Shown here: piece by piece, positions 6,343 through 29,326 of the stretch
Layout: every line of letters begins with the position of its first letter
Position numbering within the stretch: the stretch's first letter is position 1
Program-made: the position numbers and the translations under genes
The notes under the pieces: model-generated
Told to the model about the DNA's origin: nothing
The model's database searches: none
What the model saw: the letters and a program-made list of their open reading frames with translations, nothing else
From: Phorcus lineatus
Taxonomy: Eukaryota > Mollusca > Gastropoda > Trochida > Trochidae
Length of the DNA: 64,000 nt
NCBI GenBank assembly: GCA_921293015.1
Contig: OV121082.1
Span: 19,509,748 to 19,573,747 of the forward strand
Direction: 5' to 3'

Positions 6343-9300
6343 TTAGTCAATTTTCACTGTTGAATAGATTTTCCTCACAAACTGACTCGTACCAACATAG
6401 CCAAATGTTCCTGAAAGTAAAAATGTTTGTTTGAATCCATTTACAGTATTCACATATTGATAACAATTATTGTACACAAATACAACTTTTTAACCAACAT
6501 TAAATCACTGAGCGTCAGACAATTTCATCATGCTACATAAAGTTAATATAAACTAAATGATCAACTTTTTCCAATACGGATCAGAACTTTCGTTTGATTG
6601 CCAATATTTCCCGAGTCACTTCCATAACTTTTACTCTTTTACAATGAATGGATAAAAGTATTTTTTCTGTATGAAGAACTCACCACACATGACCCCAAGT
6701 GCAACACTAAACAGAGCCATGTAGCCGAAGTAGAAAGCCGTTTGAAACAATCCATACATTCTGCAAAAGATAAAAACACGTCTTGATATTTTTTTAAAAA
6801 ATTTGAAAAATGTTTTCAAATTACCAAGCAACCTTGTAAACATGAAAATGTTTAAATAATTCAACAATATCTTTTTCAGGGCAAACTGCCAATGAGCTAA
6901 TCTATATTGATTTTAAAACGAACACCATAGCCACATTGTCAATTTATCACCTAAATAGAAAATTTCAATCCAAACCATTAAAATAAAGTTTTAATATATT
7001 ATTAGTATGAAAGTAGAAGAAAAGCATGAGAGGACAGTACTCACTTTGTTTTGAAGAAGAAATAATAGAATGAGTAGAGATACACATATCCCGAGGTGGA
7101 GGCCGCAGCCAGGAAACTAGTCCACTGCCTGGAAAATAGAAGCATATTTCTTATTATATTTCAAAATTCATAATTTATAGAATATCAAACGAGTGTCCTT
7201 GTCTCACTGTGATACATATGTTGCTAAATTAACAATTATTTTCCCAGTGAGAGTGAGTGCATTTCAGCTTTATCAAATCCCGATTGGGGAAAGGCAGATA
7301 TCAAATTTCTATTAAAGGGTACATCTGCGGTTGGATATGAAATGTAAAGTTGGAGACGAAACTTGACATTCTTACAAAATTGATGTCACAACAGCATGAT
7401 ATAATATAAAATACTATTTATTCTAAAATATATTAGGAAAAGGAAACTTCTTCCCTGGTAGGTAAAAAATGCGAACATGAGACAATGCCTGTGGTTAAGA
7501 ACTTAGCATTAAGCCTATAAACCAAAATCTTTACTAAAATTGATGGACACAGATAAGACAGTTAAAAACGTATACCCCTGTTCAGGATAAAGAGTTGAAG
7601 TCACTGATAATCAGAAATCAGGGTTCAAAAGTTATTCATCATGACAGGGATCAGCAAAGTTTATTCAATAAGTAGGTTTACACAATGATTATTATGCTTC
7701 TATTTGTGTTGAAATGATACCTGCCTTACGTAATTTCATAAACAAAGTGTTTATGAATATGATGAAATCTGAATGAAAATTTGTAAAAAAGCATCTTAAA
7801 AACATTTTCTTAAATTTTAAATCTAGAATGGATATTTACTTTTTCCTATAAGGCTTTCTTTATATTAGTAAGTAGGATTTTTGCAACCCTAAAATCAGAG
7901 TTTCTAACCAATTTTTGTACTTATTTCAAAAGTTTAACAAATTCTTTCTCTGTTCAGTGTAAAAGCTGAAGTCATCGATTGTCAGAAATCAGGGTTCAAA
8001 TGTCATTCATCAACACAGAGCAAACTACACAATATATGCAAAAGTAAAATGGCAGAAATATGTTGTTGATTCCTTGTTGATGAAACAAGATATTCATGAG
8101 CCAAGGTCAAAATACTCACCATCGATAATCTTCCGCATTTAATAAGAAGTATGTACAGACGATGGTGACACACACAGTGACAATGGCCAGGATGACAAAC
8201 ACTAGGAACATGAAGCCGTACACGTAGTATATCTTGTACGCCCAAAATGAGGTGAAAATAAAATACCTGAAACCGAAAAATAGATTAGAATCTATACAAG
8301 CTCATTAATTTACATAATATAGTACCAATCCAAACAGCTTTCCATGAAATTTTTCTATTCGAGCTAGTCTTTGCGAACCCTTGAAAATTATTGCAGTAGA
8401 AATTTAATCTTTTCTTTCCGGCCTATACTTACAAAGGTTATAATATACTGAAAGAAATCCCTGTTCAGTGAGAAGTTTGAAGTCACTAATGATCAGAAAT
8501 CAGGGTTCAAAACACTTCATCATTACAGGGTAAGTAGTCAAAGTAAGCTGACGGGTGATATTGAGGAGTGACTCACATTTCAATAAATATAGAGCCGAAA
8601 GGCAGCACTCCACCCAACACAACAATCACTCCCGGCTCCATGAACCTGAAAGCAGACAAGCATGTCCATATCACAGCAATGTTCTCAGGGATAGACGCTC
8701 ACCAGAAATGTTCACTAGTCCTGTGGGCTAGTAGATTTTGAAAATCGCTAGTCCTTTCAATAAGTTACTAGCCCTACACTTTAACATGAAAAAAACTGCA
8801 ATCCTTAGGAAGTTATAGATGCATGGTGAATAACAGTTTCTGTTTCAATTTCAGTATACATATTTATTGCTTTTTGTTTTTATGAAAGTTATGAATCTAA
8901 AGTCAAGTAAAAAAAATTCTGTTTTTCAGCCTCTCATATAATGCAAAATCTATTATTTCAATCAAACAATTTCATAAACTTAACAAAACATTGTCTTAGA
9001 TGATACTAAGTAAATATAATTATTTGATTTAAATATTAATAAGTTTTTAGTCATATTGCAATAACTGTTTATTTTGACAATTATTTAATTCTGACAACAA
9101 TCTCCTTTTTTTTTTACCTAATTCTTTAGACATGGAGAACCAACAAAACCAAGTTGTAATTCTAACTTTCAGTTCACTATCACTAAATATCCTAGAATAT
9201 TATGTGTATAAAATACTTTACTTTTAGTCTATATATGAAAGACAATAATGCTACAATATTTCCAAAAACAAAATTAAAAAAACCCAGTATAAACTAAAAA

Positions 9301-12300
9301 CTCAAACCTTTGATGTCCCATCTATCAGAATAAATCGGCTTGGTTGCTATTTATAGATTATCATGTTCCCGCTATGTGGCCTGGCCTAACAAGAAATAGG
9401 GGTGACAGGTTGTTACTCAGTACCATATCAAACTACATCAAATTATGTTAATTCTTTTATTTACCAAAATTATTACATAATGAATAACTAAGTCAACAAT
9501 ATTCCAAAACACTAATCCTACCCTTTGCATTTGTTCTCTTCATTAGAACTATAATGTTATGTGAAACTCTCATGATTGTACAGAAACTATCACCTGTAAG
9601 CAACTGGTTCAGTCCAGTATGGTGCTGTCACTGTTGATTGAGGCCAGTCGTGAACATGGGAAGTTTGATGAAGAAAGTTTTGGGTTTTTTTAATGAAGAG
9701 AGAATGTAAATTATTTCTGAGAAGGGAACTTATTGTTGGTCAAAATAATTACATTCCAAACATTTATATCTTATCAATATTTGTAATTCTTTGATTTGTG
9801 ACATGAAATGACAGTTCTAAAAATAGATCGATTGGGCAAGCCGTAACTGCTGAAGAGAAACGAAGCATATATTGACGTTTATTTTTTGTGGTCAAACGTT
9901 TTAAAGAAAAAAAAATGCAATTAGATTGTATATAAAAGACATCGTTGTTGAAATTTACCTTGACTGTTACTCTACATTTATCTTTTCATGTGGCACTTCG
10001 GTATATATAGATCTACTTCTCAACAGTCCAGTTAGAATATCAAATCAACTTAACTGACACTGATGTTCCACCCGACTCGTATTTATAAAGATAACTCCAA
10101 CTCATTAAATGGATTTTAAAAACGTATTAATTGTAGTCAAGGAGAATTCATTTAACTTCGACCACATAGAAATGATAATTTCCCCCAAACATTTAACTAG
10201 TCCGCCGGGCTTGCTTACACAAAATTTTGCTAGCCCTTACGATTTTTCACTAGCCTCGGGCCAGCGGACTAGCGTGAGTGTCGATCCCTGGTTCTTCATA
10301 AAATACACACACAAAATGACAAAATTTTTATCTTTCTGACCATTAATTATATTTCCATGAATGCAATGGCCCTCATGCGCCAACAGTTTTCTGCTACCTG
10401 GTTATTAGTAATTCATGACGCCCAACTTCAATACATATCAAAATATTGAGAAAATTTTTTAAACTTATTTTGGTGTTCGGAAAAACTGTTTTCAATAAAA
10501 TTAAGACTTCTTTCCAAGGACATTTTTTCCCTGAAAAAGTATATTTCCCCTTAGCTGTCAGTTTGTCAAGAAAAATTTGCTCCTGAAATTTCATTTGAGA
10601 AAAGTTCAGCATTCAATGTTAATTCATGGGAAAGCAAATTATTCAATTAGTATTACATTCTTATGAAACAAAAATAGAGAACTTTTTTTTAAGGAATTCT
10701 AGTTTTGAAGAAGTTCGATGGTTACCATTTTTTCTCTGGTATGGGCCTGGGCACAGCATTGATGCGGCAGGGGTAGTTAGGTTGACCTGCCAGGTTCCTA
10801 CCCAGCACAGTGCCCACCAATGTCAGTGGCAAGATCACGAAGATGCAGATGCATGTCACTGCCACCTGGTAACATACATCTTACAATCAGCATTTATAAA
10901 AGTAAGAGGTTTTTCAGTTTAAGGCATGATCAATTGGTATCAGATATTTCGTAGCATTTATTTTACAGTGGAGAAAGTAAAAGCCCCAATGATTAAGCGC
11001 TGATTCAAGAATAACTTTTAGGAACAATAATTTGAATTATTGAGTATCAATCCCGATGCAGACTGACTTTCAATATTCCTACTCAAATGTACTTTTGGAA
11101 AAGCCAACAAGTACCATAGGTGTGTTTCAAGGTTTAAATGCGTATCTTCATCTTTGATTTACAAATAATGCCAAATGTGAATTTCTGTATCTGCAAAAAT
11201 GCTTTACTAAATCTATGGAAATTCAAGAGTGAATAACACACTATCTTAATTTAGAAGAAAGCTAACCATTGTGCCAAAGGGGATGGCCCGTGAAGCGTGG
11301 TAGTAGATGGCGATGAAGTTGATGAAGAAGGCCATACCGCACACGAAGCTGGGCAGGAGGAAGGCACTCATCAGCATCTGCTTAATCCACACCTTGCCTG
11401 CAACATGTACACAAATAGTTATGTTGCTCTAGAGCAAATTTTAGGATCAATTCATCAGGAATAGTGCATGCAAGTCCAAACATCTATTCGTAACATCAGT
11501 TCTGTTTGAATGTCGACATTGTTTTCACATGAATGAAAATGCTACATTAGAAACTCACCGCCCATTCTTGCATAAAGTCCACCACCGCAGTATCCATTGA
11601 CTGGGGCTGTAGCAGCGTACACAAAGATTGCTGTACTCAGCAGTGATCCACGTCTGGAAACAGGTGACAAATCACTTAGTCAATAATAACAATAGGATTC
11701 AAAACATGGATGAAAAAATTTGAAACATGGAGTGGAGCTTTGTAATGTTGGGATGCAAACCAAACTTCCCTGACAAGTCATAACTTGCACTGTTATCAAT
11801 CACAAGCTACTTGAGCCTTGCTGCACTTCATGAGCTTTCTTCTACCAGCTATTATAGAAACTTGATATTCAAATAAAAATATCCAGCAGATTAACACTTG
11901 CTGCTGATGCAGACACTATCCACAAAATCTGGCACTAAGCAGCAACAAGTGGCAGTGTAACTATTACAACTAATTACGACTGGCGCAAGACATGCCCTGT
12001 GAGGGTCTGAGGGGAGTTGACAAATCTTGAGCTTACTCTGTGTAGAGTTCCCCGAGGATGGTGAAGGTGATGACGCAGATGGAGACCATGCCGATGTGGT
12101 AGCCTGTGCCGATGAGTGCAGAGAACAGCATGGGGTGGGAGGCTGGGCGGAACACATCACCGTGAACCTGCTTCCATCCGTATTCATCACCTAAATCCTT
12201 CTCCTGTAAATCACAGGACAAACACGTCAGACTTCAAGATAGCTTAAAGCTGATAAAAAAAAACATTTTCACTTATAGATAGTACAATTCCTTGCATGGT

Positions 12301-15300
12301 TAAACCTTGTCATTACTGCATTCTAAGTTAATAGGTTCCCGGTATTTAGTTCCTTAAGAAAGGTTTTGTACTCATAAGAGTCAACAGGGAATGAGTTAAT
12401 ATCCCTATCAACTAGAGATTACAAATATAAGATAAATAATGAAAACATACAAGGTTTCTTTGTATGCAAGTTACATTAAATACACAATGATTACATGATT
12501 TTGGCATTATGACGCGACTCAAGACCATTCCCCCTTGAATTTTCCCATTCCATTCATTAATTGGTTCCAAACAAGTTCTAAAAGGAGACCTGCAGGAATC
12601 AGATATTATCTATCACTATATGGGTACCTCACAATGCGTAACGCGACACATTTTTGGAATGTGATAAAATAGGTATCACAATCCAATTTAGGCATTATTC
12701 TTGCGAAGATACATTATTTTACTGATCTCAAATCAATTTCAAAAATCGAAAACAAGAAAGTAAGTTGAGAAACCAACAGTTAAACACAAAAACAAGCCAC
12801 CATACTTATGGATCTCTTAATTTGGTATTTTTTTCAACATCAACATAAACTAAATCTATCTCACAAGTATTTACCACAAATTCTGTATTTCTGGGTCGAT
12901 AAACAAAATAATTTCAATCAATTTTCTTTATAACCTGAACCATGAAGATACACTGATGCATCCATGTATCATAACTACCTTAAGGGGAATATTTTGAAGG
13001 TTTGGACAAAAGCTGAAGTAACATTTTGTATCAAACTTAAAAGGTTTAGGCCAAGAATAATCAAATCCTTAAATATCCCTGTTCAGAAATAAATCTGATA
13101 TCACAAGGAGTCAGAAATCAGGGTTCAAATATTTATTCATCATAACAGGGAATAGCATGTACTGTGTAACATTACGGCAAGGTATCAAAGAATATTAGCG
13201 TACTGCATCGCAAGAGTTTTTAAAAGCACTCCAGTTTTGTATAAAAAATGTCTTTATTTTACAAATTGCATTTCATTACTACTTAAGATATTTTCAAAGC
13301 TTTATACACGACATTTTGATGCAAGATTATTTATGAAATTAAAAATATAACAAAACCTGGGGCAAGAGAATTTATCCAATGTTTGCGCAATGGTTAAAAT
13401 TTATCCAAAATGTCCTGTTTTCACAATAATTACTTTAAAGTTTATTCAGGGTTCAATAAGTCAATAGAAGAAAAATTTTCCCTGTTCAGAACAAATCTGA
13501 TATCACAAAGAATCAGAAATCAGGGTTCAAAAGTCAATTCATCACAACAGGGAACTGAATAGCAGTGATTTGAACTATTGTACAATCATATCATTTTATT
13601 TCCATTTGATGTTTATAACCATTCAGCAAAAAAGACAAATGCACTATTCACTCTTTGCTGCAATGATGTTTTGTATTTTTCTTGTATTATCTTAAAGCTT
13701 TAAGCCATATGTGGAAATTAAAGAAAACATTTCTCTGGTGGTCCTTGGTCATTGTTGTATAAGCTTATTGTTTTAATTAAACTTCTAATTAAAGGAGCTA
13801 CAGACTGTATGATTGACTACTTGCCAATTGTTATATGTCTTGTTCTGTTAAATTCTTCCTTTAATCTTAATGATTTGAAGTCATGCCAATGCTTTTTCAA
13901 ATAACCATTTCCTTAGTCAATGATAAGCTATCGAGTGGTCGAACTTATCTAAAAGACCTATCTGGTTGCTAGTGTGTATAATTATCTAATTGAATTACTA
14001 AATGGTAAGATAAGAAATTTAATAATAGCACTCCTCTGAAAAGCTAACCTTGAATATCTGGAACAAAATTGCTCTACATAAAAAAAATTGCTAGAATAGC
14101 AATTTGCTCCGATAGTTATTTCAAAACTGACATGACCAAAAAATAATATCAAAGACATCTGTATATCCGAGTGACTCACTCAGTTATATTTTAGGGTGTC
14201 AATGCCAAATTTAAGCTAGTAGCAGTGTTATGTGCCTAAATAAAAAATACTCTTCAGAAATTGTCTCACCATATCATCGAGGTCCTCCTCCTTACTGTAG
14301 CGAGCGTAGTCCTTGCGGAGGGTCCTCATGAGGATCATACTGACCAGTCCAACCAGGAAGATGACCATCATAAATGAGTTGAAGATGCTGAACCAGTGGA
14401 TCTGTGGGACAAGGATCAACACTGGCAGTGAGTAGGAGACGACAGTTATTGCCCTTGAGGGTTACAACAACTGGGCCTAGATTTTTGAAGCGCTCTTGGT
14501 GCTAAGATAGTCGTAGGCCAATGTTAATTGATGGTATTTATGACTAAGAGAGCTTCGAAAATCTGGGTCCAGATTTATATTTTTCACTGAGCAAATCATC
14601 ATTTACTCTGGTTACATTATGTCTACCAATCTTATATATATGTCAGGTAAATACCAGTGTATGTTGATTTGTTCCAAATAAGGTTATGGCGTGTAGGCAG
14701 CCATTGCTTGAATGACTGACAAATTTCCTCAATTTCATAACTTTGCGGTCGAAAAAACATTACATTCCTGATGTACTTACCCTGTGCTGGAAGAAGTTTG
14801 GATCCAAATATTTATCAAATCTGTCCTCAAACTTGATTTTGGATGTATGCCATTTCACCTGAAATTTTCAAGAGTACATCTTACATCAGTTTCAACTTAA
14901 CATATACTTATATGCTGCAATTCATGATTATATTAACATCTTTGTACAGCATTCATAATTTCTTATTAAATATCTTTGAAGCAAAAAGACCCTATGTGTA
15001 ATATTTATACATGAATACACTGGAATAAAAACAATTCACTCAAAAAAAAATCTCACCTCATATGTAAATGGGATCTTGACGCCCTGTACAAGTTTGACCT
15101 TAGCCTCACTGGTGAGATTTACATCAACAATCTGCTTGTTGTTGTAGCCGATGTCAAACTTCTTGTGAGTCCAGATATACAGGCCTTCACCTCCCTCCTC
15201 TATCTCGCCCACAATACCTGTAAATAGGGCGTTGAGATATTTTATTGGTTATATTCAAACAAATTTCACAGCTTGAAGCATGCTGAAGTAATGCTGTTGA

Positions 15301-18021
15301 ATTTGAGTATATTTAACACAGGGATTGGGAAACACGACTTGGAAAATTTTTGACAGTTTTTTTATCAGTAATCTTGTATGGGCTATTCCCCTTTGTAGAT
15401 ATAGTAAAATTTCAACTTCTAATGGGCCATTTTTCATCCAGTATGAAAAATGGCTGATGGGCCCTGCCCTTCCCAATCCCTGAATAACATATTTACATAT
15501 TCAATGTCAGTTTTGACAAGATCTGAATAGTGGAAAGTCTATTTGAATACATTGAATGATCAGAAGGAAATTGAAAATAAAATTGAAATGTAAATCTCCT
15601 GTTCAGATATATAAATTTGAAGTCACCGAAAATCAGAAATCAGGGTTCAAATTGTATTGCATCATAACAGGAAGAGAACTTTAACAAATTTATAATTTCA
15701 CAATTGTCAACACTAGTTACTACCAGTCTACCAACACTGATAAAACATTATACAGAGAAAAAGCATAACCTCTAAAACTGATCACATGAAACGTATATCT
15801 ACACTACATAGAAGAGGTAGGTACTGACCCCAGATGGGCAGGTCGTCGATGTACATCTGATACCAGTAGTGGTTCTTCACTGCGTACGTCAACGCCTGGT
15901 ACTTCTCCTCAGACAGCTCCACAGAACAGTACTGAGTCTTGCCAACATCAGCTGCAGGTACAAACAACTCATATAAACCTTTCATCAAATTTTAATCATA
16001 TCTAAATTTTCCTCATGTATGATAACTTTTACTGTATTCAATCATTTTGTGATTTTGTTCAATAGACATTTAAAATCAGGATAACTATACCTACATTGTG
16101 CATTCAGACTGAGTTTAACTTAATAAGCTCCTAAACCCTACATTTACGTAAGTGAGTGAGTCTAATAAAATGCTCAAAATCTGCAAAATACTATCAAAAG
16201 TTACATTAATCTGAATCCTATTTAGCAAGCTAGTTTGTTAGAGTTTTTCTGAGAAAACTATATTCTTATCAGCTTAACCTTTAAACGTTATTTGCCGATT
16301 ATTTCAAATTCTTCCACTTAAGTTATATGCAAAAGGCCTTAGACAAAATCAGTGACAGAAATATTTCAAGTAGACAAAAATTGATGAAATAGTGATAATA
16401 TCTGAAATCATTCTTTTGATTGTAACACTGAGCTTTTTCATCAATAACTCAAGACAAAATTTGTGGCTCTTCAAAAACTGGCCTTTGGTGTTTTGTATCA
16501 CTGCATATGACTTCAAATTGTTACCCTGTTAATTTCTAAAAATTTTAAAGTTAAATGCTGAGGTTCTCTAAAAGCTAGTTCTCCTCACCCCCAAAGTCGA
16601 TATCGACTCCGCTGAACTCCAGTTCAACACCGAGCAGAGCCTCCCCAAGAGTTTCGTGGTAGTGACTGATGCTCTCTTTAGGTCCACGGCAGAACGGCAG
16701 CGAGAAATACTCGTACGTCTCCTGGCGATTGTGATAGGGACCCACAGTGTTCATCCATAGGACAACCTCATCAGCATCATTGTACTACGGAATGAATACA
16801 TACATTTAGTCATATGAAGTAAAATATTGTGTAATAATATAATAAGCTTAAGCAAAATGTGTTACTCTAGTACTGGTAAGCTCGTCTTGTAGTTTGAAAA
16901 TTCAACCAGCTCTTTTAAAGAGTTAACAAGCCTTGAAGAGTACACACTTGGTAAATTTAAAATTACCAAGCCAGCTGGGCTTGCGGATTTTCTCCATGAA
17001 GCCCCACCTGAAATTAACCAGCAAAAGGCTGAGGGGGAGGCAGTTATCTTGAACACTCATAAGGACTACTGAAATTTCAATTGAACCAACCCAAGCCGTA
17101 AGTTATCTGTGTAATCAAGTGCTACTTCTTGCCTACAAATATATCAAAAGACCTAAACAAATTTCATTCACCTTTGACGCTCTAAAATGACCATAGTGTT
17201 AATGATTTGACATTGTTAGAACTTTTTTGTAACAATATGTATCCATATCATGTTTAATACTAACAAAAAATAATTTGTTAGTTTTATTCATTAGTCAGTC
17301 AGATACTTATTAACACTTTTAATCAAAAATATCAATCTGTGGTTCCAATATTAATTAAAATTAACATTGTAACATATCATTATGATGTAATCATAAACCT
17401 GATCTATTTCTATGGTGAAGAATAAATTTCTGTGACGTTAAGCGATTAAAAATATGGCATTTGATGTTTTGACAATATTTTATTTCACATGTCAACTCCA
17501 TCATTTGCTTCATGACAACATTTTCTGAGGACACACATGAAGTGTTAATTTCATTCTCAATTGTGATCTTGTTACCGAAGGTCTGGAAAAATTAAAAGTC
17601 AAATTTATATACAAATCTCATGTTACGTCAGAAGTATGGTAATATTGATTACTGCAAAACTATAACGTGAATTAATAAATTTGAAACAAAGCGATATTAA
17701 CAAAAATCAGACATTTTCTTGATGACGTTTCCTTATTTCGTCTTGTTGACATTCGAATGCATCGGGGATATTAGCATTATGTATCAATTCAACAACGATC
17801 AAGAAAGGTTATGGGACAAAATATAAGTCATTGTCATAATCATAATTCGTTGACAATAATATATTGTGTTTCTAATTTGCATAAAATTGTGGAATATCGC
17901 ATAACTTGGAAGCAACCGGCAGCTAAACATTACTACTTACTGTATGGTCGTGTTCATCGCATCCTCCTTTATAAAATAAAATAACAGAGACAATCAGAAT
18001 TTGCAAAGGTTTCGACGACAT
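6343..18021 (-). CDS. TM9SF3: TM9SF3 orthologue, nonaspanin multipass membrane protein (15 exons)
   Basis: Joining 15 exons gives an uninterrupted 582-aa frame, close to the ~589 aa of human TM9SF3: 17941-18021, 16589-16784, 15829-15951, 15057-15217, 14781-14858, 14270-14401, 12037-12203, 11559-11653, 11267-11397, 10726-10865, 8577-8645, 8120-8266, 7045-7128, 6684-6760, 6343-6410. All introns are GT-AG and phases match. A signal peptide (aa 1-25) precedes the luminal domain, with family-typical [20 protein letters not shown] and [16 protein letters not shown]. Nine membrane segments follow, starting near aa 214 with [20 protein letters not shown]. Later hallmarks are [41 protein letters not shown] and [11 protein letters not shown]. 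The C-terminus VKID fits the KxD/E Golgi-retention motif of TM9 proteins. In the family these proteins sit in Golgi/endosomal membranes and assist membrane-protein transport and adhesion. Introns carry six snoRNA-like copies. Nothing is broken. Similarity to TM9SF3 rather than TM9SF1/2/4 is from recalled sequence. Confidence 0.96.
7576..7649 (-). ncRNA. box C/D snoRNA-like, copy 1 (intron of TM9SF3)
   Basis: On the gene's sense strand the element opens with CCCTGT, then box C ATGATGA (7636-7642), a guide ending in box D' CTGA (7611-7614), a C'-like CAGTGA, box D CTGA (7582-7585) and closing ACAGGG. The 6-bp ends pair to bring C and D together. It lies in the intron between exons 8120-8266 and 7045-7128, in host orientation, as intron-processed C/D snoRNAs do. 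Expression is inferred, not shown. Confidence 0.8.
7948..8020 (-). ncRNA. box C/D snoRNA-like, copy 2 (intron of TM9SF3)
   Basis: Second copy in the same intron as copy 1. The terminal stem reads CTCTGT with ACAGAG, a paired change relative to CCCTGT/ACAGGG elsewhere. Box C is TTGATGA, with a non-consensus first base. The D' segment TTTGAACCCTGATTTCTGA is identical to the other copies. Box D CTGA precedes the closing stem. The weaker box C leaves room for reduced function. Confidence 0.72.
8459..8530 (-). ncRNA. box C/D snoRNA-like, copy 3 (intron of TM9SF3)
   Basis: Stem CCCTGT/ACAGGG, box C ATGATGA, invariant guide plus D' CTGA (8493-8511), C'-like TAGTGA, box D CTGA. It sits 46 nt from the 5' splice site and about 190 nt from the 3' splice site of a 310-nt intron, in host orientation. 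Confidence 0.8.
8686..10290. mobile_element. 1.6-kb DNA transposon-like element in a TM9SF3 intron
   Basis: Imperfect inverted ends CAGGGATAGACGCTCAC and CAGGGATCGACACTCAC, each followed by CTAGTCC-rich subterminal sequence, flanked by GTTCT (8681-8685 and 10291-10295). No transposase frame is visible. Superfamily uncertain. It begins 40 bp upstream of the 3' splice site of exon 8577-8645. Confidence 0.75.
13076..13151 (-). ncRNA. box C/D snoRNA-like, copy 4 (intron of TM9SF3)
   Basis: Stem TCCCTGTT/AACAGGGA (8 bp), box C ATGATGA, invariant guide/D' at 13111-13129, C'-like TGTGATA and box D CTGA. It shares a GATATCAGATTT segment before box D with copy 5, which lies 400 bp away in the same intron, so these two look like a local duplicate pair. 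Confidence 0.8.
13479..13553 (-). ncRNA. box C/D snoRNA-like, copy 5 (intron of TM9SF3)
   Basis: Stem TCCCTGTT/AACAGGGA, box C GTGATGA (perfect RTGATGA), invariant guide/D' at 13513-13531 and box D CTGA. Closest to copy 4. In the 2-kb intron between exons 14270-14401 and 12037-12203. Confidence 0.82.
14471..14572. mobile_element. ~100-bp inverted-repeat element (TM9SF3 intron)
   Basis: Ends CTGGGCCTAGATTTTTGAAG and CTGGACCCAGATTTTCGAAG (complement) face each other across ~60 bp. Likely a small MITE; the target duplication is unclear. Confidence 0.6.
15319..15482. mobile_element. 164-bp inverted-repeat element (TM9SF3 intron)
   Basis: Identical 13-bp ends CAGGGATTGGGAA / TTCCCAATCCCTG. No clear target duplication. 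Probably a small DNA-transposon derivative. Confidence 0.6.
15597..15672 (-). ncRNA. box C/D snoRNA-like, copy 6 (intron of TM9SF3)
   Basis: Stem TCCTGTT/AACAGGA: the outermost pair is T-A where other copies have C-G. Box C is ATGATGC, one base off consensus. Invariant guide/D' at 15633-15651, box D CTGA. In the intron between exons 15829-15951 and 15057-15217. Confidence 0.75.
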
Positions 18022-18574
18022 GTTGACAAATGTATAATAATCGGATGGTTCAGCAATTCATAGATATATCTGGATTTTCAGAGATAATTTCACTGCTTAG
18101 AGCTGTCAAATATGGCCGCCTCCATAGGCCACGTAGACTCCGCTTGGTGGCACTGCTTCAGGGGAGGTCACTCTTTGAAATAAACAAACCATGCAAGACA
18201 AGCGAGTACATGCCTTATTCATAACTCGATGATTAATGATATCGGGTGGTCTCATGAATGTAATGACTGTGCGACATGTAGGCTTTAATTAATCCTTCAA
18301 TACATTGCCCCTGAAAATAAAAATAAACTAGAATTGTATAGGCCTACGGTGTAAAGTCATTGTAGATCTAAAATATATGTAGCCTAGCGGCCATCCGTGA
18401 TATTTCTTTTACTTGAACTTATTAAAATTAATAATTTGTATCATTTTCATTTCCACGGACTTACTGAACAATGAACTAATGTCAATAAAAGCCAGGTTAA
18501 ACTGTTGGCTTTTCCGTTGATAAGATATGTTTGGGACTGGATTTTCAGTTATTTATCCATTATCTATCTATATC

Positions 18575-18736
<162 letters not shown>

Positions 18737-18984
18737 ATGTATGAATATTTGTTTTTAGAGTGACACAAAGGTCGTTTCCTGAATTTTGTAGGTGTCGTTT
18801 AATTAGAGCCAAAGTATCATATGTCTTGAGTTAAGTTCAATTCACTTTTCAAAAGTTTCTATATAGTTTATCTCTATAGTGCCAAAATTATGATATTTTC
18901 TTGTTTTCAATTGAAATCGAAAAACCTTTACATTCTACTTTCAATTTCCATATATATTAGTAAACAGCAAAACTAAGCACTACG

Positions 18985-20192: not shown

Positions 20193-21766
20193 TTAAAATC
20201 GCGGGATGAGGCAGGGAGCGTGGATAGAGGGGGCTCTCACCCGCATCTTACTTGTTTCTGCTCCTTATCTACTTTGACGATGGAGGTGGAACGCCATGCC
20301 AGGTCATAAGTCGGTTTTAGCTAAGTTTGGATAATCGTTCTTTCTGGTTTCTGGTTAATCAGCATTATTTATTATAATCATGTACTTTGGTACTGTTGAA
20401 ACTCTCTGTGTTAAAGAAGTTTTATTTCGAACCATCGCCAAACAAACCCACTTTAATTCGTATAATCTCTTAATCGGAAGATTTATTCGGACAAAATCCC
20501 GTTTTAATCCACGAAAGCTTGGAATTAATTAACTATATATGACTAAAAGGTAGCAATTCTATTGAATTGATTCTAATAAAGATGTAAACGTCGACCGATA
20601 ATTATGGATTAGATGTTATACGGCTCTTCGTGTTTGAATTTCGGGTAACATGAAATTAAATTCTACAGCTAGAACAATAACAAGACCCTGTGATATTTCA
20701 AACTGCAGCTTCATCCGCAGTTTATAGATTAAATATCAAATACATTACTCGGATCATTTCTTACTATGCAACCTACGTACCATTTGAACCGTTTCTAAGC
20801 TAGAGATATATTATCCTACAATACTGAATAAACCTGTCTGTCTGTCTATGTGTCTGTCTGTCATTTATCATCATGAATAGTTGCAATCAAAGAAAATTGG
20901 GCAATCAGCGACGAAGTTTGAAACTTCACATTCGGTATTTTCCCCGACCGTTGAGATGACTGGGGTCACTTCTCCTATGCGAGGATTAGAGGATTTTAAC
21001 ACAAACCTCCGCCCAAACCCCACCCCATCCCCGGCAAATAAAGTCCATTCGTAACAGAGGTTAATTGATTATAAATGACTTGATCAGACTATTTATAAAG
21101 AGAATTCTACATCCTGGCTGTATATGCACACCTGTCTCTGTATACATGTAAGTGATGGTTGATATATCAGCGGGTCAGCTGTATCACTAACAAACATATG
21201 TTACCTTTCACAGGTAAACATCATTATCTATATATCTATATGTGATATTACGGTTATGTGTCAGCTTTGTAGTGTAATACGAGTTTTATGTGCAAAGCTA
21301 TATATCCTGTTTTTGTGTCGTTGTAGAGATTTATAGATAATTGATTACTAAGTATTTTATATCATATATCTTAATCCGTGAAACCAATTCTCATTTTTGT
21401 ACTCTACATAAGTATACTGGATGGTTAAATAACTTTAGAACATCACACGTAAATATGCACATTTTCACCTGGAGCCACCTATCGTGAATCGATTATATTG
21501 TACCATGGGTGTTATGTTTATAGTCTCGTATCCTGTTTGTTGTGGCCGTACAGATTTACAGATCAATGATTTTTAAGCATTTCAGATCATGTTTCTTGTA
21601 ACGCGTGAAACAGAATATCATTATTCATGCGTCTACATAGGTATATAGAATCGTCAAAACATTTGAGAACAACACAACACATGTCGAAAAAAGTCGATAA
21701 AGGGAATTGAATTTACAGAAAATCTGTCGGATATATTTCTATAGTATAGTTTTTCAGGTCTATACA

Positions 21767-21930
21767 CACACATACATACATATATACATACATACATACA
21801 TACATACATACATACATACGTACGTACGTACAAACATACATACATACATACATACATACATACATACATACGTACGTACGTACAAACATACATACATACA
21901 TACAGACAGACAGACAGACAGACAGACATA
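21767..21930. repeat. compound tetranucleotide array (CATA/CGTA/CAGA)
   Basis: CATA runs interrupted twice by the same cassette ACGTACGTACGTACAAAC about 53 bp apart, ending in CAGA repeats. Confidence 0.98.
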
Positions 21931-22079
21931 CAGATTAAATAAGATTGAATTAAATTATGTCCGTTGTTATAGTTTTTAGAAATTATTTGTTTAAACATTC
22001 CACTGCCATGTTTGTTTGTTTAATTATTTATGGATATATTCAGTCTAAGTACGACAACGTTTGATTGGAACACTGGTTT

Positions 22080-25331: not shown

Positions 25332-28300
25332 TCACATCCTATTCATAGCTCTGAGTTTGTCATATCGCTCCCCCATCTCATAGAACTCATACAGTTCGGG
25401 AGGGACGGGAGGAGTCTTGTCCTCCAATTCCTCTTCATCCTCCTCCTTCACGGGAGGGTTCAACTCCGTCTCTATGGCCCTGATGACGTCATGCCTCTTG
25501 ATTTTCTTTAACGCTGTCTTCAAATCATCCAACATGGCGCGCGTGTGGTACCTCTTCCACCGATCCAGCGCTCTCCTGCAGACGGCAATCAGGGTTCCAC
25601 GTGCCCCTGTCGTGCTCAGCTCGCTGATGTCTCGTTCTATGGTCTCGTCGCCTCGTTTTGGAAAGAAGGGGAGGTTCCGGTACAGATGAACCCAGTCTCG
25701 CTCTATGGATCTGGAGATCACCCTACATGCCTTGTCAACTGGTGCTGGAAGGGTAAGAATACATCGTGAAGAAAACGTAAATCATTCGATGATGAAAATA
25801 ACAATTAATTTCGAATTGAGGATAAACTTTTTGAGTGTTTTTTTTTTCAGAAAGGTACAACAAACGCTTGTCACAAACTTCGATAGGTCTTAAAGGTTTT
25901 AATGCACACATTTTCGCTCTCAAAATGGCTATTTATGGGCATTGAGGACATAAACATTAAATTTCGCTTTCTATCAATGCAGTAAAATGTTTTTTCCCAG
26001 CACATTTGACTTGCAAATACAAATGAAAAGGATAGGCCACCTAAGTGAGAAAGGGAAAATCTACGGTCAGCTGTGCTCAACATTGTAAACATATTGATTG
26101 TTGAATGTGTGCAACTTTGGAATGTTTTAATCCTTTAAGAACAAAGGATGACATATTTCCTTTTTAGGTATATCTGTCTCTTTACCGATTTCATATACAT
26201 GGTACTTAAATTGTTGTTTGATGAACAATGGCGACAGACTAAGCAAAATTCGAATATTAGAGATATCGGAGTTCATGCGGATTTGATACAACGTTGCATA
26301 AATTCCTTCAGGTCGGTAAGAATGCATTTTATAACCTGAATAGGAACATATTTCCCAAATATTTTATATGGTAATAATCTGAGTGCGGATGGTAAGTCAT
26401 TGAGTGATATATGGTTAAATATATATCATCTGTACATTCCTTGTGATTACAATTTGCGTGAGTACCTTTAATTACAATAAAGAATCCAATTACTTTATAC
26501 TACGCGTTCGGTTTCAATTCAAGATTACATATTAGTTAAGCCAAAACCGTTTCCAAGCAAAATGATCATAACATAAAATACATTGCAGTTCGGATATGTT
26601 GTATTAGTGGTCACAACTGAAATGCTTTAATTCACATTTGCTAGATACATGTTGTCAGACAATTCAGGAATGCTCGAACATTTCTGTGAGTCAATTTATC
26701 AAAGACCTTCAGTTACATTGCTTTACAAATAAATGTTGTCTGGTGCCATTTCCAAGAATCATTTCAGAACCGGAAGCATTTAAAATCAACATCTACGCAT
26801 GTGTGTGTGGGGCGCCTATATCATGCTTTGAGTAAAGATTATATGACACTTATCACATACTAGCAGTCTTGGACTGGACCCCGAGAGGTTTGCCATTCCT
26901 GGCACTGACTGGCATACTGTAGTAGATCTTCTCCACTGCATCATTGCTGGTCTTGCAGAGGATGATCTTCCTGGCCAGCTTGAGACTCTTCTCCACCTCC
27001 AGGTACTCCTTCTCCTTGTTCGCCCTGTCTTCTCCAGCCTGCTGGATCTCCTCGCGGAGTGACGTCATCTCTTCCTCCAGTTTCTCTACACGAGCTCCCT
27101 TCTCCTCAACCCACGTCATCTTCATCCTGGTTTGTGAGAAGGATTTGATTTCATGCTCAAAATTATGATGATTATGATAATAATGATGATGTTGAAGTTG
27201 ATGTTAATATTTAAAAAGGTAATAATTTTGACAATAATGATAAATATTTTCAACAAAGAGAAATATGTTTAATGATAATGTTAATAATAGTAACAACAAT
27301 AGTGTCTTTCATTCTTTCTTTGATAAGGAATTTAGTGCAAAATCAAGGGGCGAGCTGAGTTCAAATTATTCATAAATGTGATAAGGCTTGATGCGTCAAA
27401 ACGGAAATATTAAACCTAGAACGTGTGTGAATGGATTAACAACATTATATGATCATCAGAGTGGTGTACTCGTAATCAAACAGAAGTAGAATTAAATCGT
27501 ATCACTGGTTTCATACTGGATTACGAAGCATAAACTATAGAAAGGAAACATTGAAATATTCGATGGGACCATACAAATACAAAGTCATAATCAAATGTAA
27601 CCGATATAAAGATAACAGGTATTTCTTAAAGATCAAAATGTAACAAAACAGTCAGAACCTGGATAAGGATACAGATTTGCGACTGTTTCAAAAGTATTGT
27701 GTCAATACCCTTGACATTTGTAATTATGATTCTAAAGGGGGCACTGAACAGGGCTGCACATCTCACTTTTTATTTCTGAAACAACCCTACCTGACTGCTG
27801 CCAATTGTCTTTGTAACCCTGGCAACCTTTCTTTCAGGTTTTTGAGATCCTCAGTGAGCATCTCAAAGCTGATGGCCGCAAGTTCGGGATCTTCGTTCTC
27901 CGGTCGGAAGTTGTCTCGCCTGTACTCCTTGAACTCGATCTCGAGCTCTGTGTCAGTCACCTTCTTGGTAAGGAGCTCCTCTTCTCGCTTCAAACGCTCC
28001 TTCCGGTCTCGCAGATTCACGACCTTGGTTTCCGCTTCTACAAACTCAACCTCCAGCTGATTGAGACGGAATGTAAGGGAGTGGTACCTTGTCCTAGCCT
28101 CTCTCAAAGCCTTAATCTTCTCCTCTTTCAGGGTCTCCAGATCGATGAGATCGTTCTTCAAGAAACTGGCATATGTCTCGTCTGTTTTGAGCCATGACGA
28201 CATGAGACTTAAAACATTCCGGATATTGGTACAGATGTCCGCAAACATAACGAGGAAGAGAACTTTATGGAGGTTGTGTTTGGAGACAAAGTTTGCAACA

Positions 28301-29326
28301 GGAGGAGTCAACATCGAAAGCTGCAACCCACGACCTTTGAACTTTTTGAATATTTCCTTTGCATGTCCAAGACTGGTCTCGATGTTGGTCCTCCAGGACT
28401 GGATCTGTTCCTCGAAGTGCGACGCGGTCTCCAGATAACCCTCCTTCTCCACGTCCTCGGTGTTGTAGAAGCTAACACAGTACTTGTCGAGGTGTTCCAG
28501 CAGCTTCTGACATTGGTTGGTCAGTTCACTCACTTTGCCCGGCACAAACGTCTTCACCTTGGCGTACATATCTTTCAGCACCTGTGTCAATGCAAAGGGA
28601 AAACCTGTTGGAGACCTACAGATGAAAGACTAAGATGTAGCAGGGTTCTTAAATGTCACTCTATATTATTTCACCGATAAAGTGCTAAAATGGACAGAAT
28701 AAAGATGGATATGAGATATTGGAATGAACGCACCTGAAATTTTTCGAAAGCGTTTACATCATTTAAAAAAAAATGGAAGTTTATTTAGCAAAACAAGACA
28801 GTCTTATGGATTACAACTTCTTTATCTATTGTAAACCTTTATTTAGAAGTTAATGTATTAATACAAGATCATACCATACCATCTTTATCTATTTTTACAC
28901 GAAGTCTCCGGGTTACTACTTGAACTAGTTCAAGTTATCACCTACCTGCGCGTTCTCCGCTGTCCCTTTGTATCCGGGCGCCGAGGCCTTTCTCAGGACC
29001 TCTTCGATGCTGGTTATAGAGTTGCACTCAAATATCAGCACTGACTTCATGACTGATTTTACGCTGTAGACCACCTTCTCTACTTCCTGATGTACAGTCT
29101 TCCTCTCCCCATAGTATGCGCGTTCAAGTCGGTGTAGCTTCCGGTGCACGTGCTTGATCTCAAGGTACAAGAGTTGTCGGACTTCCCTCAGGCACTTAGG
29201 TGGCGCTTTCTCAAGCTGCTGTAAAGCGTCATGTTTCCTGTGTAACGCCGACCTATCGTCAAGCGGCACCATGAACGCTGATTTGCTCGTCAGTGTCGGC
29301 ATCCGGTGGTCCAGCACCGGCCGTAG
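25332..29326 (-). CDS. coiled-coil protein with C-terminal death domain
   Basis: Four exons join in frame: 28946-29326, 27791-28581, 26861-27126 and 25332-25744 (stop TGA at 25332-25334), giving 616 aa. With a candidate 12-nt first exon at 39439-39450 the product is 620 aa beginning MALK. Order (numbering of the 620-aa form): basic helical N-terminal part with LYLEIKHVHRKLHRLERAYY; a long helical region; heptad-like, Lys/Glu-rich coiled coils (about aa 290-460); then a death domain at about aa 492-578, with the helix pattern IERDWVHLYRNL, DETIERDIS, LIAVCRRALDRWKRY and LDDLKTALKKIKRHDVIRAIE. An acidic EEDEEELED tail follows. Death domains form homotypic oligomers in cell-death and innate immune signalling. 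I recognise the domain, not a named orthologue. Gene coordinates do not include the uncertain first exon. Confidence 0.85.

Follow-up and report, generated by a model that had tools for sequence, protein, structure and literature searches.

Six intronic box C/D snoRNA-like units in a TM9SF3-like gene of Phorcus lineatus and their predicted 18S rRNA target

Introduction

Six short and similar units lie in the introns of a single membrane-protein gene of the gastropod Phorcus lineatus. The question is what kind of element they are and, if they are guide RNA genes, which nucleotide they would address. A preliminary description read them as box C/D snoRNA-like copies. Guides of this class are complementary to their targets over 10-20 nt counted from the box, and the fifth nucleotide selects the target nucleotide. 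In vertebrates, intragenic duplication is a documented route of snoRNA spread, according to the part of PMC2653536 consulted. Here, we analysed a window of 64,000 nt (contig OV121082.1, positions 19,509,748 to 19,573,747; all positions below are those of the window unless stated otherwise) and searched the whole assembly of 958 Mb in 74 contigs.

Results

Host gene and position of the units

The host is a minus-strand gene of the EMP70/TM9SF family (PF02990, E 2.3e-160), which we take to be TM9SF3 from its likeness to the human sequence. A phmmer search with the host protein against PDB gave no match. The gene model covers the 3' part of the gene, and the 5' edge of its first joined exon is approximate. 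An extra exon at 7045-7128 was recognized through its translation; it is flanked by AG and GT, and its edges were set by eye. As the preliminary description had it, the units (six of 72-76 nt, all on the minus strand and thus in host orientation) are spread across four introns of this TM9SF-type gene, and each has a terminal stem and boxes C, D', C' and D in that order, with slight departures from the box C consensus in c2 and c6.

6343-16781, minus strand: 3' part of the TM9SF3-like host gene (EMP70 family), 13 joined exons plus the exon at 7045-7128
7129-8119, minus strand: intron holding c1 and c2
8267-8576, minus strand: intron holding c3
12204-14269, minus strand: intron holding c4 and c5
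15218-15828, minus strand: intron holding c6
7576-7649, minus strand: copy c1, with stem and boxes C, D', C' and D, in the intron common to c2
7948-8020, minus strand: copy c2, stem CTCTGT/ACAGAG with one two-sided change from C-G to U-A, box C TTGATGA
8459-8530, minus strand: copy c3, matching the family consensus and carrying the invariant core
13077-13150, minus strand: copy c4, in the intron common to c5
13480-13552, minus strand: copy c5, forming with c4 the strongest blastn match between copies
15597-15672, minus strand: copy c6, outer stem pair U-A (a two-sided change), box C ATGATGC

Elsewhere in the window, the minus strand at 25335-29326 has open stretches that belong to one or more other genes; a death domain is matched weakly there (E 0.00019, slightly short of the cut-off), and a long exon resembles Rab11-FIP3, again weakly (E 0.00044, short of the cut-off). 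Simple repeats, long (CATC/TATC)n and (TACA)n, are found at 18553-18740 and 21760-21935. The haemocyanin domain PF14830 has 16 matches in the assembly, grouped in two sets of eight, which fits a gastropod source, since gastropod haemocyanin genes carry eight units each.

Structure and conservation of the units

Boxes C (RUGAUGA) and D (CUGA) lie near the ends of each unit and are joined by the terminal stem, and the internal D' and C' boxes are present with an adjoining upstream guide. The CUGA of D' and the UGA of C' (3/3 columns) are invariant in all six copies, as are all four columns of box D and five of the six columns of box C. The departures in box C are a T in place of R at the start in c2 and a final C in c6. 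The stem has seven pairs and is paired in 95.2% of cases; two of the seven pairs show two-sided changes and four never vary. Its covariation score was equalled in 4 of 500 shuffles, a count that is not to be read as a probability, and further pair types occurred in no unusual number (464/500 shuffles). Mean column identity of the six copies, aligned with short flanks, is 78%. When the copies were compared with 150-nt flanks, pairwise similarity stopped at the unit edges or within about 14 nt of them, stray short matches aside. The RNAalifold structure of model R1 also contains a predicted internal hairpin.

The strongest conservation is in a 19-nt core, TTTGAACCCTGATTTCTGA, which comprises a 15-nt guide and the D' box and is identical in every copy.

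7611-7629, minus strand: guide and D' box of c1, TTTGAACCCTGATTTCTGA, with predicted pairing to 18S GAAUCAGGGUUCGA
7982-8000, minus strand: guide and D' box of c2, exact core match
8493-8511, minus strand: guide and D' box of c3, exact core match
13111-13129, minus strand: guide and D' box of c4, exact core match
13513-13531, minus strand: guide and D' box of c5, exact core match
15633-15651, minus strand: guide and D' box of c6, exact core match

All 15 guide columns and all four D' columns are invariant, compared with 5 of the 30 other non-box interior columns; the Fisher P of 4.5e-8 is optimistic because the bounds of the core were set after the alignment had been seen. Conservation focused on the boxes and one guide, as the preliminary description had noticed, is thus borne out by the column counts. 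The D guide, which varies from copy to copy, has probably diverged or is not used.

The off-consensus box C of c2 and c6 and the drifting D guides might also be expected of a formerly functional snoRNA family that is now decaying into pseudogenes. We regard such decay as very improbable, since the guide and D' box are invariant while the other interior columns vary, and since the stem covaries.

Confinement to one gene

The copies are confined to the TM9SF3-like gene. Within the window, a search for TTTGAACCCTGATTTCTGA at up to three mismatches gave six matches, all of them exact (0.02 expected), in agreement with the earlier statement that no copy lies outside this gene in the window. In the whole assembly the exact core also occurs six times, always in this gene, with no match for the reversed control, and the 74-nt consensus likewise has six matches, all here. 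At up to two mismatches the core was found at 45 places, compared with 17 for the reversed control. All 39 places outside the family were scored with the family covariance model, 14 in one set and 25, within 23 loci, in another; the best reached 15.5 bits (E 0.091), compared with 88-93 bits for the six. At one locus (G000:C41:14796217-14796415) the two-mismatch core is repeated three times at 90-nt spacing in a satellite-like array; this array gave no match to the snoRNA family model.

Since the similarity of the six units breaks off sharply near their edges, they could in principle be a dispersed repeat or transposon that carries box-like motifs by chance. Many scattered copies in both orientations, which the preliminary description had named as the observation that would overturn its reading, were not seen in the whole assembly: with only the six copies there, by exact core and by consensus alike, the family is not a dispersed repeat. 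The gap between at most 15.5 bits at near-core places and 88-93 bits for the six, the host orientation of 6/6 units and the lack of any tRNA gene in the window by ARAGORN all point the same way. We count this explanation as refuted by the copy numbers, repeats missing from the assembly excepted, and hold it to be extremely improbable. A tRNA-derived element was considered too, as the complement of the guide contains the T-arm-like GGTTCAAA, and was rejected on the same ARAGORN result; T-arm-like pairing would also leave the D'-proximal guide bases unexplained.

Comparison with catalogued snoRNA families

With the fast filters, Rfam gave no match in the window at gathering score. A search of 8.7 kb with lax filters (E up to 10) gave 31 matches, and 29 of these were C/D models overlapping the units on the minus strand, so that each of the six units was matched by two to seven C/D models. 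The other two were a C/D family at 12653 on the plus strand and an unrelated family overlapping c6. Singly the matches are weak: E is below 0.1 for 1 of the 31 and below 1 for twelve, and the best of them, SNORD126, scored 27.9 bits, with 55 needed. The search of snoRNA models proposed in the preliminary description speaks for the class, through C/D models falling on the units, and gave no catalogued family at gathering score.

For the reverse comparison, a model built from the six units was applied to the window and to four loci elsewhere. It matched the RPL7A locus L008 twice, at 23 bits (E 0.0085) and at 18.5 bits (E 0.095), and had one antisense match on c6 (15.7 bits, E 0.42). The 18.5-bit match is a unit that Rfam calls SNORD24 above gathering score, and the 23-bit match presumably corresponds to SNORD36, which it resembles. 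The data support assignment of the six units to the C/D snoRNA family, which they appear to fit in every feature tested.

Predicted pairing with 18S rRNA

The preliminary description gave no target, and the shared guide has a good match in 18S rRNA. In the short part of 18S searched, the guide forms an unbroken duplex of 14 bp with 5'-GAAUCAGGGUUCGA-3' (12 Watson-Crick and 2 G-U pairs, -20.8 kcal/mol), which starts directly at the D' box with a G-U wobble. The fifth guide nucleotide, G, lies opposite the C of GAAUC. Among 300 random 7-kb targets, duplexes with 12 or more pairs, no more than two of them G-U, arose 4 times. The target stretch comes from a fragment in the same genome that is recognized as SSU rRNA by Rfam RF01960 (66.7 bits, 101 bases searched), and the RF01960 consensus agrees with it across the pairing site. 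The same stretch is contained in a mouse 18S primer given in a passage of PMC13141877. The 18S patterns that we tried, including those for other parts of the gene, did not lead to a complete rRNA gene in the assembly, and the target was therefore checked against the Rfam consensus and this short fragment. In the collections of genome contigs and viral contigs, the 18S patterns had no matches.

The position was numbered with the help of U14. The U14 copies of the same genome pair with ACAUCCAAGGAAGG, a sequence whose first part alone is contained in the genomic fragment; their fifth nucleotide lies opposite a C located 45 nt downstream of the site predicted here. This is the known C of U14, in keeping with the counting rule. 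U14 guides human 18S Cm462, as stated in a passage of PMC3511168, and the predicted site 45 nt upstream is thus human 417. Our data predict a 2'-O-methylation at the C of GAAUCAGGG, human 18S 417. C462, the U14 site, was ruled out as the target of the guide, because U14 of this genome pairs 45 nt further downstream.

Searches for this site in earlier work gave no counterpart. In the part of the chicken snoRNA table consulted (PMC2653536), U14 is entered at C-423, and C-378, which lies 45 nt upstream, is absent. No report that combines C417 or Cm417 with snoRNA and 18S rRNA was found in the open-access literature, nor did the guide letters occur in any of the papers listed. The site terms do not occur in the main text of a fly study (PMC13228274), nor do the terms sought in a frog study (PMC8797249).

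The two matches of an 18S 20-mer in the assembly are short 18S-derived fragments, at about 1485-1557 in L015 and about 1485-1549 in L016. Both start at the same 18S base and carry GAGCATGAG where the Rfam consensus reads GCCUGAG. The L016 fragment appears to be intronic, in a gene that we take to be a metalloprotease from resemblance, and the L015 fragment lies in unidentified flanking sequence; the two may share a mobile carrier. L017 and L018 had no Rfam match at gathering score though L017 spans the 66.7-bit fragment; fragments of this kind can thus escape the fast filters.

Comparison with U14

Among the 14 matches listed in the genome search with RF00016 (120 of 18466 candidates scored), seven were strong (57.5-63 bits, gathering score 64). 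Five of these U14 copies lie in one gene and two in another, which we take from their translations to be RPL7A and an eIF4A-like gene, respectively. Four of the five RPL7A copies are upstream of the exon starting PKPKRGKKK and are therefore probably in intron 1. The eIF4A-like gene also has five SNORA21-like matches below gathering score.

L034 (C39:16640400-16645900): U14 locus, RF00016 matches
L035 (C32:27552500-27560500): U14 locus, RF00016 matches

U14 resembles the six units in being a C/D snoRNA that pairs with the same 18S region and has multiplied within host genes of this genome. These likenesses raise the question whether the units derive from U14 (SNORD14) through divergence and loss of domain A. 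The parts of U14 are called domain A and domain B. Domain A (UUCGCAGUUUC-like) and domain B, which addresses C462 from box D, are both seen in the U14 copies of this genome and both absent from the six units. The guide of the units is unlike domain B (CCTTCCTTGGATGT), is located at D' and not at D, and would direct to a site 45 nt upstream. RF00016 was also absent among the matches to the region at E up to 10, and 0 of the 14 genome matches listed (120 of 18466 candidates scored) fell in this gene. Since U14 exists elsewhere in the genome with a different guide, in seven copies among the matches listed, the TM9SF3 family is not U14. We count a U14 origin as refuted by the comparison of guides, and it keeps only a very small chance.

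Discussion

Judged from its sequence, the family most likely belongs to the known C/D class as a member not yet catalogued, with an unusual host and a guide predicted to act on 18S. The six units are probably paralogous intronic C/D snoRNA genes whose products would act in snoRNPs, the D' guide directing methylation at 18S human 417. The units would be transcribed together with TM9SF3 and freed from the spliced introns, and the freed RNAs would be bound by the C/D core proteins to give fibrillarin-containing snoRNPs. The D' guide (UUGAACCCUGAUUU adjoining CUGA) would then pair with 18S GAAUCAGGGUUCGA and lead to 2'-O-methylation of the C in GAAUC. The copies may have arisen through duplication within the host gene. 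Six copies would probably raise dosage, in a host that is apparently not a ribosomal-protein gene. Strictly exonucleolytic processing yields one snoRNA per intron, and this would not explain the two introns that hold two copies each; we therefore infer that an endonuclease may take part besides exonucleases.

U14 has a part in processing besides its role in methylation, and this dual role, together with a pairing site 45 nt from the U14 site, counts toward the possibility that these are genuine C/D snoRNAs whose guide assists rRNA folding as a chaperone or addresses a different target (other rRNA, snRNA or mRNA) instead of directing methylation of C417. The duplex search, which covered a short part of 18S, leaves room for such targets. 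A long duplex that starts at D', as methylation guides require, and the rarity of such duplexes among random 7-kb targets (4 times in 300) speak against this possibility, and we consider it unlikely. Our preferred explanation remains guidance of methylation at 18S 417. A further suggestion, that the site belongs to the gastropod lineage and is served by six genes in a membrane-protein host, with two introns yielding two each and with variable D guides that have private second targets, is rather doubtful.

Similar guides and similar clusters are known from other animals. HBII-202 is presumably SNORD68. HBII-202 and the guide of chicken G-397, listed as HBII-429, are C/D guides to neighbouring 18S nucleotides (chicken U-389 and G-397, with U14 at C-423), according to the part of PMC2653536 consulted; they differ from the present family in target nucleotide, the site predicted here being chicken C-378. 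The cis-duplicated clusters of the gas5 type, described in the same part of PMC2653536, also consist of paralogous snoRNAs across the introns of one host. The present family differs from them in its host, a TM9SF membrane-protein gene, in the pairs of copies found in two of the introns, and in its absence from Rfam. The multiplication of U14 inside its hosts indicates that intragenic snoRNA amplification is ordinary in this genome. With U14 five times in RPL7A and the duplication route documented in the part of PMC2653536 consulted, the preliminary description placed too much weight on the presence of six copies in one gene. Its statement that a TM9SF3-hosted cluster is not known to have been described agrees with the passages of open-access literature consulted, among which none links TM9SF3 with snoRNAs. 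To judge from that literature, the family, the host gene and the predicted target site are undescribed; the kind of gene is well known.

The accepted view of how snoRNAs work stays unchanged by these results. The prediction points to a single nucleotide. If the units are expressed, they would constitute an uncatalogued guide family whose predicted methylation site lies in a conserved region of 18S rRNA and had no counterpart in the reports searched, and they would show that in a mollusc a gene not belonging to the ribosome machinery can be a snoRNA host.
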